Position numbers and translations under genes: made by a program
Part shown: positions 5,437-61,823 of the stretch, one piece after another
Layout of the letters: every line of letters begins with the position of its first letter
Position numbering within the stretch: position 1 is the first letter of the stretch
Notes under the pieces: generated by a model
Told to the model about the DNA's origin: nothing
Seen by the model: the letters and a program-made list of their open reading frames with translations, nothing else
The model's database searches: none
Source of the DNA: Deltaproteobacteria bacterium GWA2_38_16
Lineage (GTDB): Bacteria; Bdellovibrionota; JACOXK01; 2-02-FULL-40-11
Reading direction: 5' to 3'
Length of the DNA: 64,000 nt
NCBI GenBank assembly: GCA_001797335.1
Contig: MGPE01000009.1
Location: 4,090 to 68,089 of the forward strand

Positions 5437-6551
5437 CGATACGTACTCGTTGAAACATCTTGTTGTTGAGCAGAAATATTTAACAATATTCCTACCCCCG
5501 CTAAATTACAAATAACAGAAGTACCTCCATAACTTAAAAAAGGAAGCGCTAAACCTTTTGTTGGAAGAAGCCCCATGACAACAGCAATATTGGTAATGGC
5601 TTGAAAACTAATAAGAGAGGTAATCCCCAAGGCTAAATAAGTTCCAAATAAATCGGGTGCTTTTAAACTAATGCGAATCCCTCGATATAAAAAGAGCACA
5701 AAAAGAATAATGACTGCCATGACTCCCATAAAACCCAATTCTTCTCCAATCACCGAAAAAATAAAATCTGTATGCGCTTCAGGAAGATAAAAAAGTTTTT
5801 GGCGCCCATCTCCAAGCCCTAATCCTAAAATATTTCCTGAATAAAATGCTAAAAAAGATTGAATAATTTGAAATCCCGTATTGGCTGGATCTTCCCAAGG
5901 ATTTAAAAAAGCTAAAATTCTTTTTTTCCGATAGGGAGTACTCATCATCAGATAACACGCCGTTGGCACTAAAACGATTAGCGCAGAAATAATATATGAA
6001 AGACGGGTGCCTGCAGCAAAGAGCATTAAAAAAACAATAAAGGCAATAGAGACCGCTGTTCCAAAATCCGGTTGAAGAAGAAGAAGCCCCAAAAATAATC
6101 CTGTAACGATAAGATGAGGGACAAAACCAATGGCAAATGATTTCATGCTGCCTTCTTTTTTAGACAGTGAATAAGCCAGATAAAAAATAAGCGCATATTT
6201 AGCAAATTCCGATGGTTGAAATCGAAAAAATCCTAAATTTAGCCATCGTCTGGCTCCTCCTACTCGATGTCCAATGCCAGGAATCAAAAGGGCAATCATT
6301 AAGACTAAACAGATAAATAAAAAGGGATAAATGATTTTATAATAAGAATGATAATCAATGAGTAAAAAAACGATAAGAGCAATAAAGCCTAAAGAAGCAA
6401 AGAGAAATTGTTTTTTTAAAAAAAAATAACTGTCATGATAATTTTGGAGGGCATAAATAGAACTGGAGCTATAGACCATGACAATACCAGAGAGCACTAA
6501 AACAAAAGTAATAACCAACAACCAATAATCAAAAGGAATCTTTCGACTCAT
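5433..6551 (-). CDS. ftsW: Septal peptidoglycan glycosyltransferase FtsW (SEDS)
   Basis: Polytopic SEDS-family polymerase that works with FtsI at the septum. About ten hydrophobic segments span 372 residues. Conserved family stretches include RRWLNLGFFRFQPSEFAKYA, the extracytoplasmic loop before FIFSVIGEELG, and LPFLSYGGTS near the C-terminus. The position between murD and murG favours FtsW over the elongation paralogue RodA. The ATG lies in a TAATG overlap with the murD stop. Confidence 0.95.
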   Translation of the reverse strand: MSRKIPFDYWLLVITFVLVLSGIVMVYSSSSIYALQNYHDSYFFLKKQFLFASLGFIALIVFLLIDYHSYYKIIYPFLFICLVLMIALLIPGIGHRVGGARRWLNLGFFRFQPSEFAKYALIFYLAYSLSKKEGSMKSFAIGFVPHLIVTGLFLGLLLLQPDFGTAVSIAFIVFLMLFAAGTRLSYIISALIVLVPTACYLMMSTPYRKKRILAFLNPWEDPANTGFQIIQSFLAFYSGNILGLGLGDGRQKLFYLPEAHTDFIFSVIGEELGFMGVMAVIILFVLFLYRGIRISLKAPDLFGTYLALGITSLISFQAITNIAVVMGLLPTKGLALPFLSYGGTSVICNLAGVGILLNISAQQQDVSTSTYR

Positions 6552-7906
6552 TATAAATCACGCAAGAGTTCTTTAAACGTATCCCCCCTGTGCTCATAAT
6601 TTTTAAACATATCGAAACTGGCACATCCTGGGGAAAATAAAATCACATCTCCGGCTCTAGATTTTTGATACGCCATAAAAATGGCTTCCTCTAACGTTCC
6701 CACAATAAAAGTTTCTGTATAATCCCCCACGGCTCGATTAATTTTTTCCTTGGCTTCCCCTAATAAAATAAGATTTTTTACTTTCTTTTGAACCAAAGGA
6801 CGCAAGAGCTCAAAGTTGGCGTCTTTGTCTCTGCCTCCCATAATTAAAATTAATGGTTTATCAAAGCTTTCTAATGATCGAATGACCGAATAGACATTTG
6901 TTGCTTTAGAATCATTATAAAAATCCACATAACCTCGAGTTTTGACATATTCTAACCGATGCGCCACTCCTTGAAATGAATTTAATGTTTGTTGAATTGA
7001 TTCTGGAGAACATTTTAAAATTTTAGCAGCTAAAAGAGCAGCCATAAAGTTTTCTTTATTATGATCCCCTTTTAGTTTTATTTGATCCGTTAGGTATTGC
7101 TCATGCCAATCCTTGGTTTTTAAATAAAACCGATTGTCCTTATAATAAATTCCCTCTTGTCCATGGGCTAAATTCCCTTTAGTAAAATATAAGACTTTAG
7201 CTTTGGTTTCTTCGGCATAAGTTCTAATTAAATCATCTTGGGCATTTAAAATTAAATAATCTGTCCCTTTTTGATTTTCAAAAATTCTTCCTTTAATTTT
7301 TCTATAATTTTCCATAGATCCATGACGATCTAGATGATCAGGCGTTAAATTCAGCACAAGAGCAATCTTCGGATGAAAGGTTTCTATGGTTTCTAATTGA
7401 AAGCTGCTTACTTCTGAAACCACATATTGATATTCTTCCTTGGTTAATAAAATATTAGTTAGAGCATTCCCAATATTCCCTCCAACAAATGCTTTTTTCT
7501 TTGCATTTTGTAAAAATTGTCCCACCATCATGGTTGTCGTTGTTTTTCCGTTGGTACCTGTAATGGCAACAATGGGTTCTTTAATAAAATGATATGCAAA
7601 TTCAATTTCACTCATGATCTTTTTATTTTTCTTTTTGGCTTGTTCAATGAGAGGATTTGTTATCCAAACTCCAGGGCTTACAATAAAAATATCATTAGAA
7701 AGTAATGTTTTAATGGGGTGACGTCCCAATTCATATTTTATTTTTTTATACGACCCTAAGAGTTTTAAATAAGGCTGCAACTCTGTTTTAGTTTTAATAT
7801 CGGTAACGGTTACCTTAGCCCCACGAGAAGCTAAAAACTGAGCCACCGAAACACCACTTCTGGCCAATCCCACAACCACTATTTTTTTTCCTTTTAGTTG
7901 GATCAT
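6551..7906 (-). CDS. murD: UDP-MurNAc-L-alanine--D-glutamate ligase MurD
   Basis: Adds D-Glu to UDP-MurNAc-L-Ala. The N-terminal Rossmann-like loop VVGLARSGVS is at residues 11-20, the ATP P-loop GTNGKTTTT at 117-125, and NLTPDHLDRHG and the C-terminal HRLEYV and NDSKATN motifs are all present. Length 451 is normal. A 4-nt gap separates it from mraY upstream, and it overlaps ftsW by one base. Confidence 0.97.
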   Translation of the reverse strand: MIQLKGKKIVVVGLARSGVSVAQFLASRGAKVTVTDIKTKTELQPYLKLLGSYKKIKYELGRHPIKTLLSNDIFIVSPGVWITNPLIEQAKKKNKKIMSEIEFAYHFIKEPIVAITGTNGKTTTTMMVGQFLQNAKKKAFVGGNIGNALTNILLTKEEYQYVVSEVSSFQLETIETFHPKIALVLNLTPDHLDRHGSMENYRKIKGRIFENQKGTDYLILNAQDDLIRTYAEETKAKVLYFTKGNLAHGQEGIYYKDNRFYLKTKDWHEQYLTDQIKLKGDHNKENFMAALLAAKILKCSPESIQQTLNSFQGVAHRLEYVKTRGYVDFYNDSKATNVYSVIRSLESFDKPLILIMGGRDKDANFELLRPLVQKKVKNLILLGEAKEKINRAVGDYTETFIVGTLEEAIFMAYQKSRAGDVILFSPGCASFDMFKNYEHRGDTFKELLRDL

Positions 7907-10393: not shown

Positions 10394-11847
10394 ATGGCCT
10401 CATGTGCAACTTCTCGATCATCAAAATGAATTTTTGTTTTTCCTAAAATTTGGTAATCCTCATGCCCTTTTCCAGCGATTAAAATAATATCTTTGGGTTT
10501 AGCTAGGGCAATGGCTTTTTGAATGGCACGCTTTCGATCTATTTCCACACTATAATTTTTTTGAGTAAATCCTCCTAAAATTTCTTCAATAATTTTTTGT
10601 GGCTCTTCAGTTCTAGGATTATCAGAGGTTACAATTACCTGATTGCTAAAATTTTCGGCGGCTTTAGCCATCAGTGGCCGTTTTTTTCGATCGCGATCTC
10701 CTCCGCATCCAAAAACCGTAATAATTCTATTTTTCTTTAACTTTTGAAGGGCTTGGCCTACGTTTTTTAGCGCATCATCGGTATGTGCATAATCGACCAG
10801 CACCAAATAGGGTTGGCCAGCATCTACCCGCTCAAGCCTTCCTGGAACCCTTTTTAAATTCCACACCCCTTGCTCAATAATTTTTTGAGAAATACCTAAA
10901 GCGCTGGCTACTCCTATAACTCCTATAATATTGGATAAATTATGTTCTCCTAAAAGCTGAGAACGAATAGAAAATATTTTTTCTCCTACCTTTATTTCCG
11001 CTTTTAACCCTTCCAAATTAAATTCAAAACTTTTTACAACGATATCAGCCCCCGTAGAATGAGTGGTAAAGCACTGGGCTACTTGTTTATTTTTTTTAAG
11101 TTCTTCATATAATTTTACTCCGTAAGGATCATCGATATTAATAATGGAAGTAGGCATTTTTTTTTGACTGTGTTTTAAAAGATCTAAAAATAATCTTTTT
11201 TTCGACGAAAAATAATCATTAAAATCCTTATGAAAATCTAAATGATCTTGGGTTAAATTGGTAAAAAGCCCCACATTAAAGTGGCTTCCATCCACCCGTT
11301 TTAATTTTAAGGCATGAGACGATACTTCCATAACCACGTGCCCTACTCCTTCTTTTTTCATGTCATAGAGCATTTTTTGAAAATCTAAGGATTCAGGTGT
11401 GGTATTAGGAGCAGGGATTTCTTTTCCCCCATATCGGTAATTAACAGTCCCAATGACGCCCGGATTAAATCCAGCTTCTTTAAAGATAGATTCTAAAATA
11501 TAGGTAGAAGTTGTCTTTCCATTCGTCCCCGTCACGCCTACTAACACTAAATTTTTTGTGGGATGGCCAAAAAATTCACACGATAACAGGGCCAAGGCTT
11601 CCCGGGTATCTGGGACAATAATTTGAATAATGCCTGGAGAGATATCTTGTTTTTTTTGAACCACAACAGCTTTAATACCCTTTTTAACAACATCATTGAT
11701 ATACTGGTGTCCATCGCAAACAAATCCTGGAACAGCCACGTATAAAGAAGAGGGAGTTACGGTTCTTGAATCTGCCGTTAAATGTTGAATTTCGATATCT
11801 TTATTTATTTTAACTTTTAAACTTCGAATAAGTGTAGAAAGTTTCAT
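10369..11847 (-). CDS. murE: UDP-MurNAc-dipeptide--meso-DAP ligase MurE
   Basis: Adds the third amino acid of the stem peptide. P-loop GTNGKTTST at residues 107-115, with TTPESLDFQKML in the substrate region. DNPR at 409-412 is the motif known to select meso-diaminopimelate over lysine, so the wall is inferred to be DAP-type as in Gram-negatives. 492 residues; shares one base with the ftsI stop. Confidence 0.96.
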   Translation of the reverse strand: MKLSTLIRSLKVKINKDIEIQHLTADSRTVTPSSLYVAVPGFVCDGHQYINDVVKKGIKAVVVQKKQDISPGIIQIIVPDTREALALLSCEFFGHPTKNLVLVGVTGTNGKTTSTYILESIFKEAGFNPGVIGTVNYRYGGKEIPAPNTTPESLDFQKMLYDMKKEGVGHVVMEVSSHALKLKRVDGSHFNVGLFTNLTQDHLDFHKDFNDYFSSKKRLFLDLLKHSQKKMPTSIINIDDPYGVKLYEELKKNKQVAQCFTTHSTGADIVVKSFEFNLEGLKAEIKVGEKIFSIRSQLLGEHNLSNIIGVIGVASALGISQKIIEQGVWNLKRVPGRLERVDAGQPYLVLVDYAHTDDALKNVGQALQKLKKNRIITVFGCGGDRDRKKRPLMAKAAENFSNQVIVTSDNPRTEEPQKIIEEILGGFTQKNYSVEIDRKRAIQKAIALAKPKDIILIAGKGHEDYQILGKTKIHFDDREVAHEAICLQLKKS

Positions 11848-13907
11848 TATGGAGAATGTGTTTTAAATGTCACACTACATTTTTGTCCTGCTTGTAAAGC
11901 ACTTCCTACTTTTAAAGACTGTTCTACGGCTACCCCACTGCCTTTAACAGTTAAAATAAGCCCTGCTTGGCGTGCAAACTCTAGTACTTCTCGCATGGAT
12001 TTACCGCGAAGATCTGGCATCTGAGAAGGGTTCTGGTCTACTCTTCGAGACACGCTATCAAATTTCCCTGCGAGAAATTTGCGCTCCCTCTCGGACTCGC
12101 TCCCCTCAGGGACAAGTCCCTTCGGGACCATGCCCGCTCGTCCTGCGAGAGGGTCTCTTAGAATAGACCAGAACCCTTCTCTTGTAACAGTATCTTCTTC
12201 GGTGCCACCCACCCACCTGCTTGGAAAAAGTCGTAACGTATGCAACGCCACGGATTTAAATAAGGGCGCAGCCACTTGGCTTGCATAATAATATTTTTTA
12301 GGTTCATCGATTAAGACTAAAATCGTAAATTTTTCCCCTTTATGATCAGCCGGGGTAAATCCCAAAAAAGAAGCTAAAAATTTATTCGGATAATAGCCCC
12401 CCCGTTCTAAGTTTGGTTTTTGGGCGGTCCCTGTTTTCCCAGCCACCGCATATTCATCTAAAGCGGCCAAATATCCCGTCCCATCTTCTTCTATCACCCT
12501 CATAAGTATTGCGGTTAGCTTTTGAGATACCTCCTGGGTAATCACTTGTCTTAAAATTTGTGGCTCTGTCTCTTTTATTTCTCCTGTTTCACTTTCAATA
12601 ATCTTTTTTACCACAAATGGCCGCATGAGTTTTCCACCATTGGCAATAGCCGACATAGCAGAAATAAGTTGAATGGGCGTTACAGAAATTCCTTGTCCAA
12701 AAGCTATATTGCTTACATCAATTTTTTCCCATGTTTTAAAAGGCCGAATAATGCCAGATGCCTCACCAGGCACATCAATACCCGTTTTATTTCCAAATCC
12801 AAACTCTAATATTTTTCGATGGAATGGAATTTTCCCTAATTGAAGCGCTACTTTTGCAGCCCCAATGTTACTTGAATATTTAAGAACATCCGCTAAGGTT
12901 AGCCATCCATATTTGTGTTTTTGTGCTTCTCGAATAGAATCTTTGCTATTCACCTGAAAGTGTCCATTTTCACAAAAAAATTGTTCTGAGGGCAAAATTC
13001 CTTCTTCTAGAGCTAGCGCTGTTAAAAAAACTTTAAAAGTAGATCCAGGTTCCACACTTTCTGTCACCGCTTGATTTTTCCATACAGATTCAGGATATTT
13101 TTTAAACTCATTGGGATTAAAATAGGGATACTGGGCTAAAGATAAAATTTCTCCCGTTATGCTATTTTGAACAATAGCTAATCCCCGACGTGCTTGAAAC
13201 TTATGAACCTGATTTTCCAGTTCTCTTTCAATAAAAAACTGTAAAGATTTATCTAAAGATAAAATAAGAGAATTCCCCTCTTGTGCTTCTAAAAACTGAG
13301 TTTCATCCACAGAGATGGTTCTTCCCCGGGCATCTCTCATTAAGGCTAAAGATTTTTTTTGCCCCTGAAGAATAGCATCGTACCCATATTCCAAGCCTTC
13401 GATTCCTTGCGAATCAATCCCTGTCATTCCTAAAAGTTGTCCCGCCAATTCTTGATTATTATAAAATCGCTGATACTCATAAATAATGCCCACGCCTTCC
13501 AAAGGGTGTTGAGTCAGTTTCGCCGTCACAGAATCATTCACTAACCGATCAATCCACACAAAAGATTTTTTAGATTTTAACTTTGAATAGATTTTAGAAT
13601 AAGAAATCCCCGTAAGATGACTTAATTTTTGAGCCATCTGTTTAGAATTTCGAATCGTTTTAGGATTAGCAAAAATGGAGCCCACCTTGCGACTCATGGC
13701 CAACTCATTCATATTCCGATCGTAAATAACCCCTCTTTTAGGAAAAAGGGTAATGGCAGCGCGATATTGACGTGAGGCTAATTCCAAAAGCCTTTGATTG
13801 GGAACCATTTGAAGTTGCAGAGCTCGTCCAACGATAAAAAGAAAGAAAAAGATCCCAATAAAAAAAATAATGAGTACTCGAAATCGTAAAAATCCCAAAT
13901 GAATCAT
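11847..13907 (-). CDS. ftsI: Septal penicillin-binding protein FtsI (PBP3) with one PASTA domain
   Basis: Class B transpeptidase that crosslinks septal peptidoglycan. Order: cytoplasmic stub, membrane anchor at about residues 10-30, pedestal domain, transpeptidase with active-site STFK at 289-292, SSN at 345-347 and KTG at 491-493, then a C-terminal PASTA domain at about 628-682. Residues about 576-629, between the two domains, are encoded by a 159-bp palindromic element and have an Arg/Gly/Ser-rich composition unlike the rest. At 686 residues the protein is longer than usual for this reason. A PASTA domain on a Gram-negative FtsI is less common and resembles Spo VD-type PBPs. Confidence 0.95.
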   Translation of the reverse strand: MIHLGFLRFRVLIIFFIGIFFFLFIVGRALQLQMVPNQRLLELASRQYRAAITLFPKRGVIYDRNMNELAMSRKVGSIFANPKTIRNSKQMAQKLSHLTGISYSKIYSKLKSKKSFVWIDRLVNDSVTAKLTQHPLEGVGIIYEYQRFYNNQELAGQLLGMTGIDSQGIEGLEYGYDAILQGQKKSLALMRDARGRTISVDETQFLEAQEGNSLILSLDKSLQFFIERELENQVHKFQARRGLAIVQNSITGEILSLAQYPYFNPNEFKKYPESVWKNQAVTESVEPGSTFKVFLTALALEEGILPSEQFFCENGHFQVNSKDSIREAQKHKYGWLTLADVLKYSSNIGAAKVALQLGKIPFHRKILEFGFGNKTGIDVPGEASGIIRPFKTWEKIDVSNIAFGQGISVTPIQLISAMSAIANGGKLMRPFVVKKIIESETGEIKETEPQILRQVITQEVSQKLTAILMRVIEEDGTGYLAALDEYAVAGKTGTAQKPNLERGGYYPNKFLASFLGFTPADHKGEKFTILVLIDEPKKYYYASQVAAPLFKSVALHTLRLFPSRWVGGTEEDTVTREGFWSILRDPLAGRAGMVPKGLVPEGSESERERKFLAGKFDSVSRRVDQNPSQMPDLRGKSMREVLEFARQAGLILTVKGSGVAVEQSLKVGSALQAGQKCSVTFKTHSP
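12023..12181. repeat. 159-bp palindromic element inserted in frame in ftsI
   Basis: A perfect 18-bp inverted repeat, GAGAAGGGTTCTGGTCTA at 12023-12040 and its complement at 12164-12181, bounds a richly structured interior. Inner hairpins include CAAATTT/AAATTTG (12059-12065, 12075-12081) and AGGGAC/GTCCCT (12108-12113, 12116-12121). The interior is clearly more GC-rich than ftsI. The length is a multiple of three and there is no stop in the ftsI frame. Its edge shares the string TCTTAGAA, after AGGG(A)TC, with the element in mfd at 45057-45090. Confidence 0.85.
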
Positions 13908-39432: not shown

Positions 39433-39521
39433 GACAGGAGATGTCTTCCTAGTATTTCTGAGGTAAAGCGCAGGCCTTCGGGGCCGAGCCACGAAGAAAT
39501 ACTAGGAAGACATCTCCTGTC
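39433..39521. terminator. Long perfect inverted repeat between convergent genes
   Basis: 27-bp perfect arms (39433-39459 and 39495-39521; arm begins GACAGGAGATGTCTTCC) around a 35-nt loop that itself can pair GGCC with GGCC. It fills the 108-bp gap between the converging methyltransferase and ppiC genes. It may work as a two-way terminator, although no long T run follows; otherwise it is a palindromic repeat element. Confidence 0.7.
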
Positions 39522-55438: not shown

Positions 55439-56209
55439 ATGAATGACCAAAGAGCTATACAAAGTGTACTTCAGTCGAAACTGACAGAGTTTCAATTAAA
55501 AAACACTGCCTTTTCACTTCGTGCTTTTTCAAATAGGCTTGGAATGAGCCCAGGGGCCGTTTCTCAAATTTTGAATGGAAAAAGATTTGTTTCTAAAAAG
55601 ATAGCCCAAAAAATTTGTGATAAACTTCTCTTAGATCCTCAAGAAAAATCAGAGATTGTTGGGCTTTTTCCTGAACAAAAAAAAGAACTCTTAAATAATA
55701 CTGCTTTAGAACCCAATTATCTTCAACTTCAGTCAGACCAGTTTCGAGTGATTTCAGATTGGTATTATTTGGCCATTCTCTCTTTAATGAAAACCCGAGG
55801 GTTTAAACAAAGCCCACAATGGATATCTAAACGTCTTGGCATATCCCAGAAAGAAGCCAAAGAGGCCATGACCCGATTAAAAAGATTGGGGCTCATTGAG
55901 AAAGATAAAAAGGGTGGGTTAAAGCGTTCCGTTCCACGTTATCGAACCTCTGATGACACAAAAGATGTATCTGTACAAAAATCTCATTTTCAAAGCTTGG
56001 AACTCGCACAAAAGTCATTAACAACGGATCCCGTTCAAGAAAGAGATTTTACTTCAATCACCATGGCCATTAATTCTAAGAAATTGGCTGAAGCAAAAGT
56101 TTTGATTCGAAAATTTCAAGATGAATTAAGTGGTCTTTTAGAAGATTCCACCCCTGATCAAGTGTATCGATTATGTGTTCAACTTTTTCCATTAAGTCAA
56201 GGGAGGTAA
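55439..56209 (+). CDS. TIGR02147-family regulator (HTH plus DUF4423-like)
   Basis: 256 residues. N-terminal Cro/CI-type helix-turn-helix: FSLRAFSNRLGMSPGAVSQI then LNGKRFVS. The middle, VISDWYYLAILSLMKTRGFK then WISKRLGISQKEAKEAMTRL, is a second winged-helix-like region typical of TIGR02147, and the C-terminal SITMAINSKKLAEAKVLIRK completes the family pattern. The family is abundant in Fibrobacter and Bdellovibrio relatives, with few characterised members. Its stop codon lies within the ribosome site of the first secreted gene, 5 nt before that ATG, so it heads the array's operon. Confidence 0.85.
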   Translation: MNDQRAIQSVLQSKLTEFQLKNTAFSLRAFSNRLGMSPGAVSQILNGKRFVSKKIAQKICDKLLLDPQEKSEIVGLFPEQKKELLNNTALEPNYLQLQSDQFRVISDWYYLAILSLMKTRGFKQSPQWISKRLGISQKEAKEAMTRLKRLGLIEKDKKGGLKRSVPRYRTSDDTKDVSVQKSHFQSLELAQKSLTTDPVQERDFTSITMAINSKKLAEAKVLIRKFQDELSGLLEDSTPDQVYRLCVQLFPLSQGR

Positions 56210-56301
56210 ATAATATGCGTAACTTATTCTATATCGGACTTTTAATGGCAGGGCTCATCTCACCCACTTTTGCTGGAGATAAAGTAGGAAATGGGGGAGA
56301 T
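56202..56301 (+). repeat. Start cassette, copy 1
   Basis: 100 nt from GGAGGTAAATAAT through codon 29 (GDKVGNGGD). Differs from copy 4 at 2 positions, from copy 2 at about 13 and from copy 3 at about 11, counted by eye. Confidence 0.9.
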
Positions 56302-57846
56302 GTCGTGGTTTGCCGGAATACAGTAAATGAAGTTACTTCGATTGAAGCCTTAGATATTTATGAAGGGAGAGTGCGCTGGACTATCGAACTTGATTTGGGA
56401 GATGCTTCTTTGTCTCCTCTTCAAAAAGTGGAATTGGCTCTTTCAAGGTTAGGGCGAATTTCGTCTATCCGAGCAGAGAGGTATTTAGAAAAAGCCAAGC
56501 AGTTTGACGCTAACGCTCTCTTTTTAGATAATACCGAGCTTCCAGATATTTCTGATTCTAACCATTTAATTTTTCCAAAAGGCTGTAAAGTCGAACAAAT
56601 TATTGTCCAACGAACTCCTCATTTTTCAGATGATAGACGATATTTGGTCAGTAATGATCTTTGGAAACAACTAGACTCTACAAATAAAGCTGCTCTTATA
56701 CTTCATGAAATTATTTATGAAGAAGCATTAGAATTTGGGCATCAAGATTCTGTCCCTACCCGTTATTTTAATGCTCATCTCATGTCCCATCGATTTGAAA
56801 CTTTTACGCCAAAAGAAATGGCTGCTTTTTTTAAGACAATTGATTTTAAGAAATTTGATTATCAAGGTTTTATTTATGCTTCTTCTAGACTTGAATGCCA
56901 TCACCAATTCATCAAAGAAGAGATGTGGCCCATTCAATTTTTTGATAATGGCATGGTTGTTAAAAGTGGCTGTATTTTAAGTGGCTCTATCGAAGTTCAA
57001 GGACAAAAAGCAAATGTGGCAGGATTTATTTCTTTTCATGATAACGGACAGCCTCATTCTTTCATGGCCAGTTCTCCCGATCCACAAAAACCACTCATGG
57101 TCAGAATTAATGAAAAAGATTATGCCCCATATGATGGGGGAGAAATCCAGCTCTATCAAGATAGTAGTTTGAAAGCGGTCGTTTTGGCCTTAGATGATAA
57201 AAATGGATTAGTTTTTGAATCCACCAATTATTCTTTGAATACAGTCGCAGTCGATAATCCATGGGGAAAGGGGAGTCGTCCCTTAACTGTAATCCTTTAT
57301 CCGAATGGGGGCATAAGTAGCCTGATAGCCATAGAACCAGATAGGCATTATCCCAAACAAATTAAAGGATGGGGAATGAGTCGAGGTCAAAGGATATATA
57401 TTAGATCAAATCGTGTTGATTTTTTTTCAGATGAAACTGTAAAAATGGCAACCATCTCTTATGAAACACCTTTAACTTTTACGATTGATGAGCATCAGTT
57501 GAAATTTGCAGGGTATGTAGAGCTCTACGAAACAGGGGAATTAAAAAGTGGTATTTTCATTGCAGAACCTCAGAAATCGTTCTGGGGAAATACGTACTTT
57601 GAAAAAATAGCGATTCCTTTTTTGGTCGGAGATCAAAAAACTAAATTTTGGCTAAAAAAAGAAACAAATGATTGGTTTGAAGGAAGATATATTCACTTTT
57701 ATCCTGGATATAAAGTTAAACAAGGAATGTTAGCGCAGTCCGCAACATTTAAAACTACGGATGGGCAAACAATCGTTGTTCAAGAAGGACAGATAGTATC
57801 TTTAGATGAACAAGGACGATTATTACAGGGGCAAAGTGAATACTAA
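56215..57846 (+). CDS. Secreted GDKVGNGGD-family protein 1
   Basis: 543 residues from ATG 56215. Signal peptide MRNLFYIGLLMAGLISPTFA, mature start GDKVGNGGDVVVCR, a pattern common in Bdellovibrio-group secreted proteins; then EVTSIEALDIYEGR. His164-Glu165 lies in LHEIIYEEALEFGH, a helix common to all four neighbours. The C-terminal half repeats beta-like modules with similar phrases (FISFHDNGQPHSFM, VILYPNGGISSLI, YVELYETGELKSGIF), possibly a beta-strand repeat. Function unknown; a periplasmic or released effector is likely. Confidence 0.8.
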   Translation: MRNLFYIGLLMAGLISPTFAGDKVGNGGDVVVCRNTVNEVTSIEALDIYEGRVRWTIELDLGDASLSPLQKVELALSRLGRISSIRAERYLEKAKQFDANALFLDNTELPDISDSNHLIFPKGCKVEQIIVQRTPHFSDDRRYLVSNDLWKQLDSTNKAALILHEIIYEEALEFGHQDSVPTRYFNAHLMSHRFETFTPKEMAAFFKTIDFKKFDYQGFIYASSRLECHHQFIKEEMWPIQFFDNGMVVKSGCILSGSIEVQGQKANVAGFISFHDNGQPHSFMASSPDPQKPLMVRINEKDYAPYDGGEIQLYQDSSLKAVVLALDDKNGLVFESTNYSLNTVAVDNPWGKGSRPLTVILYPNGGISSLIAIEPDRHYPKQIKGWGMSRGQRIYIRSNRVDFFSDETVKMATISYETPLTFTIDEHQLKFAGYVELYETGELKSGIFIAEPQKSFWGNTYFEKIAIPFLVGDQKTKFWLKKETNDWFEGRYIHFYPGYKVKQGMLAQSATFKTTDGQTIVVQEGQIVSLDEQGRLLQGQSEY

Positions 57847-57860
57847 TTATTCTTTGCAAA

Positions 57861-57960
57861 GGAGGTAAATAATATGCGTAACTTATTCTATAGTGGACTT
57901 TTAATAATGAGCCTGCTCTCACCCACTTTTGCTGGAGATAAAGTAGGCAATGGGGGAGGC
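57861..57960 (+). repeat. Start cassette, copy 2
   Basis: Same 100-nt module; differences cluster in the hydrophobic core of the signal peptide (SGLLIMSLL). Confidence 0.9.
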
Positions 57961-59082
57961 GCTGTTGTTTGTAGAAGTTTGACTGATAACAGCGTTTTTT
58001 CTTCAGAATTACTTGATTTATGGGAAGGTAAAGAATTCCTTGATCTTTCCATACCAGAATCATCAAAAGAGGTGAATGAACAGCATTTGTCTGCATTAGA
58101 GGTAATAAGAAATGTAGGAAAACCAGAGAAAAAGTTGTCTGACAAAAATCTTCTTAATTCTATAAGTGATTTCACAGAAAGAATTTATTTAGATATTTTA
58201 GAGGCCACTCGTCATATCGATAATTCAACAAGCGATCTGCCTTTGGATATGGGTATCAATTTAACCAATGATATTTATGCAGTCTACTATAAGAAGACAT
58301 TACGAAGTATGAGCACGCCGAACCTTCGATGTGGATTAGAGATGGTGGCATATTATAGGCCAGATGGCACTTTAGAGAGAGACACTGAAATCTATGACCA
58401 TTTTACGTTAACCAGTAAAGCCGCTTTAAAAACACACGAATCTATTTACAAGGCAGCCCGAGAATTTTCAACCTTTGCTCATGGAAAGAAAAAAGTTTTA
58501 AATGATTCAAGAGACGTTAGAGAACTTGTTGCGTATTTATATTCTCAAGAACCAGACCAGGGTAAAATTTTAAATAGTCTTCACGCTCTCTTCGGTTATC
58601 GCCCAACTGAGCAGAAATATGTTGATGTTAAACCCGATGATCATCAAGAAACAAATCTCAGGATCTCAATTCTTACATCCAAAAGTCTCGAAAAAGGGGG
58701 ATTTATAGATAGTTTTATAGATCGAGAAAGTTTAAGGGGAGTCCAACTCGGTTACAATGCTTATTTATATGATGAAACACGCTCAAATCCTGTTAAAATT
58801 TCTGGGGCAACATTAGATTCAAAACAGAATCCAAAAGAACGCTTTTTGTTGTCTCAAAACATACAGGACTTACGTCATAAAATAATCTATATTGAGGGTT
58901 TTTTCTCACCTCGTCGTAATGCAACTGAGTACCTGAGAGAAGACTCGATAGAAATGACCGTTGCGGTAAAACTTGAATTATTGGGTAACAATGATGTCGT
59001 TTTGGCGGAGAGGTCTGGCACATTAATCTTTTCAACAAATACGCTTGAACCCTTTGTCATGCTTTTCTGTGAACTATATTGA
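57874..59082 (+). CDS. Secreted GDKVGNGGD-family protein 2
   Basis: 402 residues. Signal peptide MRNLFYSGLLIMSLLSPTFA, mature GDKVGNGGGAVVCRSLTDNS then SSELLDLWEGKEF, closest to protein 1 in this N-terminal region. His188-Glu189 is in KTHESIYKAAREF. The C-terminal part (about 255-400) is unlike protein 1 and has a beta-rich pattern. The ribosome site AAAGGAGG is strong; 27 nt separate it from protein 1. Function unknown. Confidence 0.78.
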   Translation: MRNLFYSGLLIMSLLSPTFAGDKVGNGGGAVVCRSLTDNSVFSSELLDLWEGKEFLDLSIPESSKEVNEQHLSALEVIRNVGKPEKKLSDKNLLNSISDFTERIYLDILEATRHIDNSTSDLPLDMGINLTNDIYAVYYKKTLRSMSTPNLRCGLEMVAYYRPDGTLERDTEIYDHFTLTSKAALKTHESIYKAAREFSTFAHGKKKVLNDSRDVRELVAYLYSQEPDQGKILNSLHALFGYRPTEQKYVDVKPDDHQETNLRISILTSKSLEKGGFIDSFIDRESLRGVQLGYNAYLYDETRSNPVKISGATLDSKQNPKERFLLSQNIQDLRHKIIYIEGFFSPRRNATEYLREDSIEMTVAVKLELLGNNDVVLAERSGTLIFSTNTLEPFVMLFCELY

Positions 59083-59085
59083 AGA

Positions 59086-59185
59086 GGAGGTAAATAATAT
59101 GCGTAACTTATTTTATATAGGACTTTTAATAATGGGCCTCATCTCACCCACCTTTGCGGGAGATAAAGTGGGAAATGGGGGGGAT
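59086..59185 (+). repeat. Start cassette, copy 3
   Basis: Same 100-nt module, about 89% identical to copy 1; preceded by GAAGA. Confidence 0.9.
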
Positions 59186-60529
59186 GGCACGGCTTTGGAA
59201 TTTAAGCATATAGCAATGGATTTGTATGATTACTTTAAAACTCTCCCTCCAGCTATGTTACCTGAAAAAATGCAAGATATAGACCTTCTTGTATTTAAAA
59301 ACTTTATAGATAATCTCAATGTTACTTCCAAGGCGCAATTTGATCCACCCCATGAAAATTTCACTGCTATGAATTTTAGTTACCCTCATGAAACAGATTT
59401 GGAAGGAGGACAAATTATTATCAATAGAAGTCGGTGGAGTGAAGAAACTCAAAAGAAAGCTGTTGTTTTGCATGAATTATTGGGATTGATGGGGAAAGAT
59501 AGAAAATACGACGTGTCTCATGAGTTTGTAAATACCATCGTAGATAATGAAGCAGCCTTTTCTCAGATCTATGATCTTATACAGGGGATAAGATCAGCAC
59601 ACGGATTTTTTGAAACGGCCATGAGTTATTTTCAAAGTGTGCATAGCGGTAAAGCATCGGAACTTACTCATCAATTGATGTGGACACATCCAAACAAAAC
59701 GGCCATGAGTGAAATGCCAAAGAGAGAGGCCTTAGAAATGATCGAGCTATTTCAAGGTGGAGCTAGAGAGTATAAAACTTTTTATGAACAGTCATTTCAA
59801 TTACAACATAGTATTTTGAGTTTGGCTTTAACCCTAATAGATTTAGAGGTATATCCAGAAATTCAAGCTGCTAAAAAAGCGTTGATTTGGGATGAAACTG
59901 TTGTTCCTGACCTTTTTTCTAGATGGGATAATGGAATGCAACTATACCTTAATCAATTTAACAATACAGTCAGTGATACCGTTATGATTGATGTCAGACA
60001 ATATACCCATGATCTTTGGGAATGGGTTCACTTGATCCATGAAATAAGAAATAGAGTGATGTCTTATTCAAAGCTTGTGACCGAGTTATATAATAGCCTT
60101 CCTGTTATAGAAAGTCGTCTTTATAAAACTGCTATTTTAAGTGGAGAATATCCAAAAAAAGACCAAGAAAGACTAAAAGAGCTATTGGAAGTACCCTCTG
60201 TCCATTTTATTATCCTAGGAAATAATAAAGATGCTCAAGTTGCAGTGAGAAACGCATCACATCTTTCCGGATTCGAAGGAGACCCCAGAGATGTCATCTG
60301 GATTAAAAAACCAGAATTAGCGAGAGAGGTCTTAGAAGCAAGCTTCCCTGAACAGTTAAAGGCAAATCGTTTTAATGGTGCCCTTGCATTTACAACATCA
60401 ATGTATGGAACTGTCTCAGATATTATTGACCAAGAAGAAACTGTTGATCTTTTTCGAGTTTTTGCTGGCTACGTTAGGGCTGAAGCTAATGTAAAAGATC
60501 AAGCGGGACTCAATACAGGAGGTAAATAA
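59099..60529 (+). CDS. Secreted GDKVGNGGD-family protein 3
   Basis: 476 residues from ATG 59099. Signal peptide MRNLFYIGLLIMGLISPTFA, mature GDKVGNGGDGTALEFKHIAM; the VVCR segment is missing. His125-Glu126 is in VVLHELLGLMG, followed by a second SHEF. The remaining 300 residues are mostly helical and unrelated by eye to the neighbours. Its stop codon lies inside the ribosome-site cassette of gene 4. Function unknown. Confidence 0.78.
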   Translation: MRNLFYIGLLIMGLISPTFAGDKVGNGGDGTALEFKHIAMDLYDYFKTLPPAMLPEKMQDIDLLVFKNFIDNLNVTSKAQFDPPHENFTAMNFSYPHETDLEGGQIIINRSRWSEETQKKAVVLHELLGLMGKDRKYDVSHEFVNTIVDNEAAFSQIYDLIQGIRSAHGFFETAMSYFQSVHSGKASELTHQLMWTHPNKTAMSEMPKREALEMIELFQGGAREYKTFYEQSFQLQHSILSLALTLIDLEVYPEIQAAKKALIWDETVVPDLFSRWDNGMQLYLNQFNNTVSDTVMIDVRQYTHDLWEWVHLIHEIRNRVMSYSKLVTELYNSLPVIESRLYKTAILSGEYPKKDQERLKELLEVPSVHFIILGNNKDAQVAVRNASHLSGFEGDPRDVIWIKKPELAREVLEASFPEQLKANRFNGALAFTTSMYGTVSDIIDQEETVDLFRVFAGYVRAEANVKDQAGLNTGGK

Positions 60530-60617
60530 TATGCGTAACTTATTCTATATCGGACTTTTAATGGCAGGGCTCATCTCACCCACTTTTGCAGGAGATAAAG
60601 TAGGAAATGGAGGAGAT
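60518..60617 (+). repeat. Start cassette, copy 4
   Basis: Same module, 98 of 100 positions identical to copy 1 although two genes lie between. Confidence 0.92.
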
Positions 60618-61823
60618 GCTGTTAAAAAAGAGGGGGAGCTCATACCCAGAGATCTCATACCCAGTGGCCCAGGCTCAGCCTTTATTCCACTGCCCCTCTC
60701 AAAGAAAAAGGAATTTCTAAACAATCTTCCTGGATTTATGAACCTTATTAAAAATATTGGACAAGCCCATCCAGGTTTAGCTCTAGCAATCTGGGATGAT
60801 TTAATGAATGCAAAAATTTATTTAGTCGATTGGGAACTGGATGTTTTACCCAGAGCAGAAACCAGCATTAGTTCAGATTTTCATGCAGACAGGCAGGTGT
60901 GCATTCGTACTGAAAACGAAATTATTTGTTCCTTACCTGCCCTCAACGAATCAAAAGAACAACGCGTCTATCCCATACATGAATCGTTACACTCCATGAT
61001 TAGAGGAGAAGGCCCTATTAAACACGAGAAAGTAAGAGCCATGACACGTTATTTAATTGAAAATGAAGAACACTATTCATTTGAAGATTTACAAGAAATC
61101 ATGAACACGCTTGGCGTATACAATGAACTTACAGGTTACTATTGGTCAATGATTAAAAAAGTGCATCGGAAATCAGGTTGGTTTTACGAAAGAGAGCGTG
61201 AAATTGTTGATATCTTATTTCAAGAAATGGGTTCCAATGAAGCTCGCTGCGCTCTTTATAAAGAGGTTATAAATTCTTGGTCAACACGTGAGTACCCCCT
61301 ATTCAATAGTATTGAATTACAAAAGGTTATTGAAAAAGGATTTGATCACTGGGCTAACTATGATCAGTGTCCTAATGACGAACGATTCAGCTATATGAAT
61401 GCTCTTGTTCCTACCTGGAATGACTCATATGTACTTGTAAATAAAGCCAGTTGGGTTTCTCATTCGTATGTTTATCCTCTAAGTATTTGGGAAGCGGAGG
61501 AAACTGAAGATAGATGTAATACATATGCTAATGACACATTAGGAGAATGGTTAAAACAAGAAAAAGTGCAACTGGAGCAAATCAAAACTGATTTGATTCC
61601 TGCTCTTAAGCACAGACTTCAAGAGGAATCTGAAGCTGGAGACCCAGCCACAGCTGAATATTTAAATTATGTGGCTTTGAATAAAGGCTGGATTGAAAAA
61701 GTAGATATCGCTTTAGAAAACGTAAATAATGCACTCTCAACTTTTGAGAAAAATCAAAAAATCTGTCAGGACCACAAAGAAAAATCATCTAGAGGTTTTT
61801 TGGGATGGCTTAAGTTTTGGTGA
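60531..61823 (+). CDS. Secreted GDKVGNGGD-family protein 4, HExxH-containing
   Basis: 430 residues. Signal peptide MRNLFYIGLLMAGLISPTFA identical to protein 1, mature GDKVGNGGDAVKKEGELIPR. His150-Glu-Ser-Leu-His154 forms an HExxH motif, as in zinc metallopeptidases; the other three have only HE at this place. Five cysteines lie in the mature part and the C-terminus is a basic amphipathic stretch, SSRGFLGWLKFW. Helical, charged. A protease role is possible but a third zinc ligand cannot be assigned. Confidence 0.78.
   Translation: MRNLFYIGLLMAGLISPTFAGDKVGNGGDAVKKEGELIPRDLIPSGPGSAFIPLPLSKKKEFLNNLPGFMNLIKNIGQAHPGLALAIWDDLMNAKIYLVDWELDVLPRAETSISSDFHADRQVCIRTENEIICSLPALNESKEQRVYPIHESLHSMIRGEGPIKHEKVRAMTRYLIENEEHYSFEDLQEIMNTLGVYNELTGYYWSMIKKVHRKSGWFYEREREIVDILFQEMGSNEARCALYKEVINSWSTREYPLFNSIELQKVIEKGFDHWANYDQCPNDERFSYMNALVPTWNDSYVLVNKASWVSHSYVYPLSIWEAEETEDRCNTYANDTLGEWLKQEKVQLEQIKTDLIPALKHRLQEESEAGDPATAEYLNYVALNKGWIEKVDIALENVNNALSTFEKNQKICQDHKEKSSRGFLGWLKFW

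Follow-up and report, generated by a model that had tools for sequence, protein, structure and literature searches.

We have found that the 159-bp palindrome lying in frame inside the ftsI gene of Deltaproteobacteria bacterium GWA2_38_16 is one copy of a family of hairpin elements, whose aligned copies have a core of approximately 100 nt in common and occur in several phyla. We consider it probable that this is a non-autonomous hairpin element whose arms arise, or are renewed, through fold-back copying of the flanking DNA. So far, protein-coding palindromes have mostly been regarded as a peculiarity of the Rickettsiales. That a single core can be recognised in several phyla, mostly uncultured, indicates that the invasion of essential genes by hairpin DNA is widespread, and proteins of these phyla may hold such inserts misread as native segments.

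The palindrome inside ftsI

The window (the whole stretch of 64,000 nucleotides of contig MGPE01000009.1 that was analyzed) contains the gene and the parts of the element at the following positions:

11847..13907, minus strand: host gene ftsI, 686 aa (PBP_dimer, transpeptidase and PASTA), from the ORF and Pfam
12023..12181, minus strand: entire palindromic element, 159 bp, in frame, ftsI codons 576-629
12048..12156, minus strand: conserved core AGACCCTCTCGCAGG...GATAGCGTGTCT, common to copies of other genomes and phyla, from alignment, covariance model R1 and cross-phylum matches
12157..12181, minus strand: 5' arm (ftsI sense) GAGAAGGGTTCTGGTCTATTCTAAG, its outer 18 bp in perfect pairing
12023..12047, minus strand: 3' arm (ftsI sense) CGAAGAGTAGACCAGAACCCTTCTC
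12059..12081, minus strand: core hairpin CAAATTTCTCGCAGGGAAATTTG, with a conserved loop and a stem that differs via paired changes
12102..12128, minus strand: variable inner hairpin GTCCCGAAGGGACTTGTCCCTGAGGGG, differing in length and sequence among copies, from alignment (coordinates from sequence)

The original prediction described a GC-richer palindrome that adds about 53 residues to FtsI between the transpeptidase and PASTA domains without breaking the frame, and this was confirmed. The GC content of the element is 56% (36% across the window), its length corresponds to 53 x 3 nucleotides and the ORF at 11847-13907(-) remains open despite the insert, which makes up residues 576-629. Pfam locates the Transpeptidase domain at residues 242-553 and PASTA at 629-680, with the insert exactly between both; it detected no splicing domain in FtsI. 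Judging by the intact ORF, translation should yield these 53 residues as a linker between the domains. FtsI orthologues of related genomes that read through this region have unrelated, mostly shorter linkers; the linker is not conserved, and a single genome represents the genus in this comparison. The segment is missing from them rather than conserved and seven more copies exist in the genome (eight in total), both in keeping with the insertion that had been proposed.

As a single strand, 12023-12181 forms one long hairpin of -90.1 kcal/mol, compared with -53.6 +/- 4.1 for shuffled sequences (z -8.9). The paired arms (12023-12056 and 12148-12181, 34 nt) are 85% complementary. The 18-bp terminal repeats are indeed perfect at ftsI, but they are not the conserved unit, which is the inner core (12048-12156); the repeat is only loosely shared with the other copies of the same genome and not at all with the copies of most relatives. 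No target-site duplication is visible at ftsI (ACAA / AGAT), where host-derived arms would blur the ends of the element.

Copies in other phyla and in other genes

BLAST searches with the ftsI element recovered additional copies, both in its 2.0-Mb genome (G000) and in related genomes. To count them we used R1, a covariance model built on the core of the aligned copies. There were 8 copies in G000, 8, 13, 2, 7 and 6 in other genomes of the same taxonomic family, and 45 (G006) and 11 in another family of the class. Within a sample of 144 genomes of the phylum, the elements appeared in all eight genomes of the class and in none of the other 136. To look beyond the class we used a gapped pattern in which 22 bases are fixed and for which approximately 0.5 chance matches are expected in the whole collection (our own estimate, assuming even base composition). 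At least 110 stretches of the genome contig collection matched. Among the matches listed were Patescibacteria (Nealson-, Parcu-, Berkel-, Uhr-, Jorgensen-, Wolfe-, Portnoy-, Azam- and Magasanikbacteria), Omnitrophota, WOR-3, Bipolaricaulota and Actinomycetota, and no Rickettsia record. R1 matched 65 of the 66 loci searched outside the class at E <= 0.001, mostly over the full length, and eight carrier genomes from other phyla had between 2 and 21 copies each (the maximum in G064). Misbinning of single contigs is possible in metagenome-assembled genomes, but hardly across so many independent bins. The core pattern was found in no viral contig, distant BLAST searches gave none in plasmids and phages, and in the open-access literature we did not find such elements reported for Patescibacteria or Omnitrophota.

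Most copies are intergenic, some of them immediately 3' of stop codons. At least 14 of the 65 copies of the class lie in frame inside intact ORFs, where they occupy either strand and several frames. The gene for PurL contains copies in G000 (inverted), G004 (truncated), G005 and G007, and that for PabB/TrpE in G000 and G001, with the core in opposite orientation between the two. The linker between LpxB and LpxK holds one in G001, G005 and G002, and an inverted one in G004. Others were found in CtaA (G007), in a kinase (G000), in a TonB-like ORF (G000; an ORF assignment without Pfam check) and in ValS of a Parcubacteria bin. Insertion of hairpins has added linkers to FtsI, PurL, PabB, LpxB-K and ValS. 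The cores are poor in stop codons, approximately 75% of their antisense frames being open vs 42% in shuffled sequences. The suggestion that the ftsI site is a linker where an insertion can be tolerated is supported by the interdomain positions, by these copies in other genes and by the orthologues without insert.

The presence of the element differs at orthologous loci. In G000 and G003 the LpxB-LpxK fusion exists but holds no full element, and the linker of G000 retains a 15-nt scar, AGTAGCGTGTCTCGA, from the 3' end of the element. Similarly, PurL of G001 retains GGGATTTGATAGTGTGTCTCGA, also from the 3' end. These scars indicate that in places the insertions are old and decay via in-frame deletion. 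Among these genomes (one per species), whose intergenic flanks diverge fast, we came across no insertion with identical flanks on both sides. As separate observations, LpxB and LpxK form one ORF of approximately 770-830 aa across the taxonomic family (G000, G003 and relatives) and separate, shorter frames in G006, G009 and G014. The murD-ftsW junction of the window (approximately 6373-6784) has no element, while the orthologous junction of G004 has one that apparently shortens the C-terminus of MurD.

Origin of the arms and pairing of the core

In many lineages the arms, of 15-30 bp, are copy-specific yet self-complementary, even over cores that are 90-98% identical. In genus g2, in G000, in G007 and in other phyla, the pairing between a copy's own arms is far better than that between swapped arms: 18 of 21 copies of g2 and 45 of 60 from other phyla were above the 99th percentile of the swapped-arm controls. 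The control fails in G002 and G006 because there the arms are common to the copies. Between paralogues of g1/g2 with 90-98% identical cores the arms were hardly more similar than the outer flanks, and unrelated arms on cores within the same range of identity were also found among Patescibacteria paralogues. On the other hand, arms are conserved between paralogues in Omnitrophota, Actinomycetota, G002 and G006, indicating that in these lineages they can travel with the core. At orthologous sites the arms differ by species with the pairing kept (LpxB-K; G001_C91 vs G005_C73).

Two sites point to the source of the arms. The Patescibacteria genomes G064 and G065 have most sites in common, mostly with 94-99% identity around them. 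At the 3' end of topA, both members of this approximately 95% identical pair have the core and the arms are unrelated. The native gene end GGCTAAA is present in both, and its inverse TTTAGCC appears across the core only where the arm covers it. The LpxB-K linker of G005 has an arm, ATTGAATAAAAC, that overlaps codons conserved in lpxB; the inverse of this arm, GTTTTATTCGAT, is additional sequence on the far side. On the sequences of these two sites, arms appear to be inverted copies of host DNA.

In the explanation that we favor, the core would move as, or via, a folded single DNA strand. At or after insertion, fold-back (template-switch) copying of the host DNA beside the core would produce the arms, so that the right arm becomes the inverted left flank, or the reverse. 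Repetition of this copying would renew the arms over time (a concerted evolution of both) and could flip the core, and insertions within genes would be retained only if the frame and the fold permit. Fold-back copying at replication, already put forward for other coding palindromes (PMC6649704), would account for perfect arms specific to each copy, for their concerted change, for the core flips and for the loss of the opposite flank. The stricter idea that every pair of arms was copied afresh, in inverted form, from its target is weakened by the lineages with conserved arms and by intergenic sites that are too diverged to be read. A broader proposal, which we advance tentatively and would not yet bet on, is that of a selfish DNA crossing phyla in which only the core of approximately 100 nt is inherited, the terminal repeats being rebuilt at each site by backward copying of the host flank, and in which a number of unrelated cores (we saw at least three others) would do likewise and compete for the same gene linkers. 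Copy-specific arms derived from the host provide a testable handle on insertion, on the growth of palindromes and on the upkeep of their perfection.

The main alternative is an ordinary element of the MITE or RPE type, with mobile terminal repeats, in which the differences between arms represent divergence after insertion and the pairing is kept by palindrome repair. We regard it as rather unlikely, although paralogues do share arms in Omnitrophota, Actinomycetota, G002 and, loosely, G000, and the paired arm changes between the orthologous copies G001_C91 and G005_C73 speak for it. Unrelated arms on nearly identical cores, in g1/g2 and in Patescibacteria paralogues, argue against it, as does the overlap of an arm with conserved host sequence at topA and LpxB-K.

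The pairing of the core itself is strongly maintained. Over 52 cross-phylum cores, 94.9% of the cells were paired vs 76.7% in shuffled and 34-53% in slid alignments, figures that lean toward structure since the alignment was fitted to the model. In the same set, 19 of the 27 pairs showed two-sided changes. G-U amounted to only 1.1% of the standard pairs (14 cells vs 83 in the shuffles, as many as the A-C mismatches, in a count that omits one loop-closing pair). G-U pairs are usually freely tolerated in RNA helices, and from their near absence we infer that the pairing of the core matters, or is maintained, at the level of DNA. In the arms of the elements G-T mismatches were in excess (84 vs 47 A-C), and there may be an effect at the RNA level there in addition to the DNA-level pairing. 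A functional structured RNA (a 3' UTR element, terminator or attenuator) instead of selfish DNA would fit the mostly intergenic copies, some right behind stop codons, and the strongly conserved structure. It is nevertheless improbable, given the scarcity of G-U, the copies on either strand relative to genes and within coding regions, and the patchy distribution over phyla with the sister classes missing. Rfam also gave no match to any covariance model at gathering or relaxed thresholds.

Even less credit can be given to a REPIN-like element mobilised as a single-stranded hairpin by a RAYT or IS200-type Y1 transposase. It would agree with hairpin DNA that has a conserved loop, and 8 of the 12 carriers tested have Y1_Tnp genes. 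However, Y1_Tnp had no hit in G001, G002, G006 or G064 (the last two with 45 and 21 copies), no core was located near the 10 Y1 loci scanned and, as far as we know, inverted target copies are not a product of the Y1 mechanism. The search turned up no mobilising gene, and a RAYT/Y1 transposase in this role gained no support from the carriers and loci scanned. Finally, a native conserved FtsI linker or an assembly artefact has a negligible chance of being the answer, with orthologues that lack the segment, a family found in many independent assemblies and identical sites in two genomes of different studies.

Known palindromic elements and other repeats

The elements most similar in their way of life are the RPE families and the palindromic elements of Wolbachia, multicopy palindromes of approximately 100-150 bp with a long stem-loop, both intergenic and in frame in conserved genes, and retained in orthologous copies (PMC2229807, PMC3767692). 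Rickettsia elements have been reported to lose the identity of their repeats over time (PMC6649704). The family described here is likewise a repeated palindrome of about this size with a stem-loop fold, in frame within several protein-coding genes. The original comparison with an RPE-like invader of coding sequences in an unrelated lineage holds for this way of life, but what we found is not a mere local look-alike. RPEs are known from Rickettsia and Wolbachia (Rickettsiales), whereas this core spans several other phyla. Besides, the core is what is conserved here; in many lineages each copy has terminal repeats of its own, and at two sites these are host-derived, unlike the RPE/MITE signature. 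We therefore call it a new variant of coding palindromes and not a member of the RPEs, set apart from their descriptions by its taxonomic spread and by the behavior of its arms.

Long palindromes in coding sequence, with arms that stay complementary as they do here, are also known from the mitochondria of Nematomorpha, for which template switching was proposed (PMC6649704); there, no mobile core common to the palindromes is reported, and the two arms each code for conserved parts of proteins. MITEs, ERIC, YPAL/RU-2 and Correia elements are small non-autonomous repeats like this one, some with coding potential (PMC2229807, PMC2759123). They typically have shared terminal repeats and often a target duplication, while here terminal repeats are unconserved in many lineages: they are not shared in g1/g2 and Patescibacteria, and are partly shared in Omnitrophota and Actinomycetota. 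REPs and REPINs, associated with RAYT, are also dispersed hairpins of conserved sequence in many copies (PMC3116915, PMC3733652), but they are shorter and extragenic, and our element has no RAYT association in the carriers and loci scanned.

Other palindromes were noticed along the way. At 39433-39521 of the window, between convergent genes, there is a perfect 27-bp inverted repeat with a different core, GAGGTAAAGCGCAGGCCTTCGGGGCCGAGCCACGAAG, and a related core (AAAGCGCAG..CGAGCCA) is located in the PabB linker of G005, which suggests a second family of palindromes, again with arms specific to each copy. PurL of G002 (locus L202) carries a tandem pair of in-frame hairpins, whose arms measure 22-25 bp and whose loops are identical (CGGCATTGCAATTCGAG, at 1381-1397 and 1492-1508), in the linker that holds ftsI-type elements in other genomes. 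The PabB linker of G003 contains another in-frame palindrome with long arms (GAGCAACAGAGGGCAAGATATGGG...), at a site that other elements occupy in G000, G001 and G005. In G064/G065 (L137, L144, L300/L362 and L318/L363) cores are partly replaced or interrupted by other hairpins, of the GCGAAGGCTAAGACTTGAGC family and of a GTGGGAAAGACCGG.. type of approximately 150 bp, i.e., palindromes nested within palindromes. Lastly, the window contains at 56202-60618 four copies of a 101-nt direct repeat, 87-100% identical and 1.2-1.7 kb apart.
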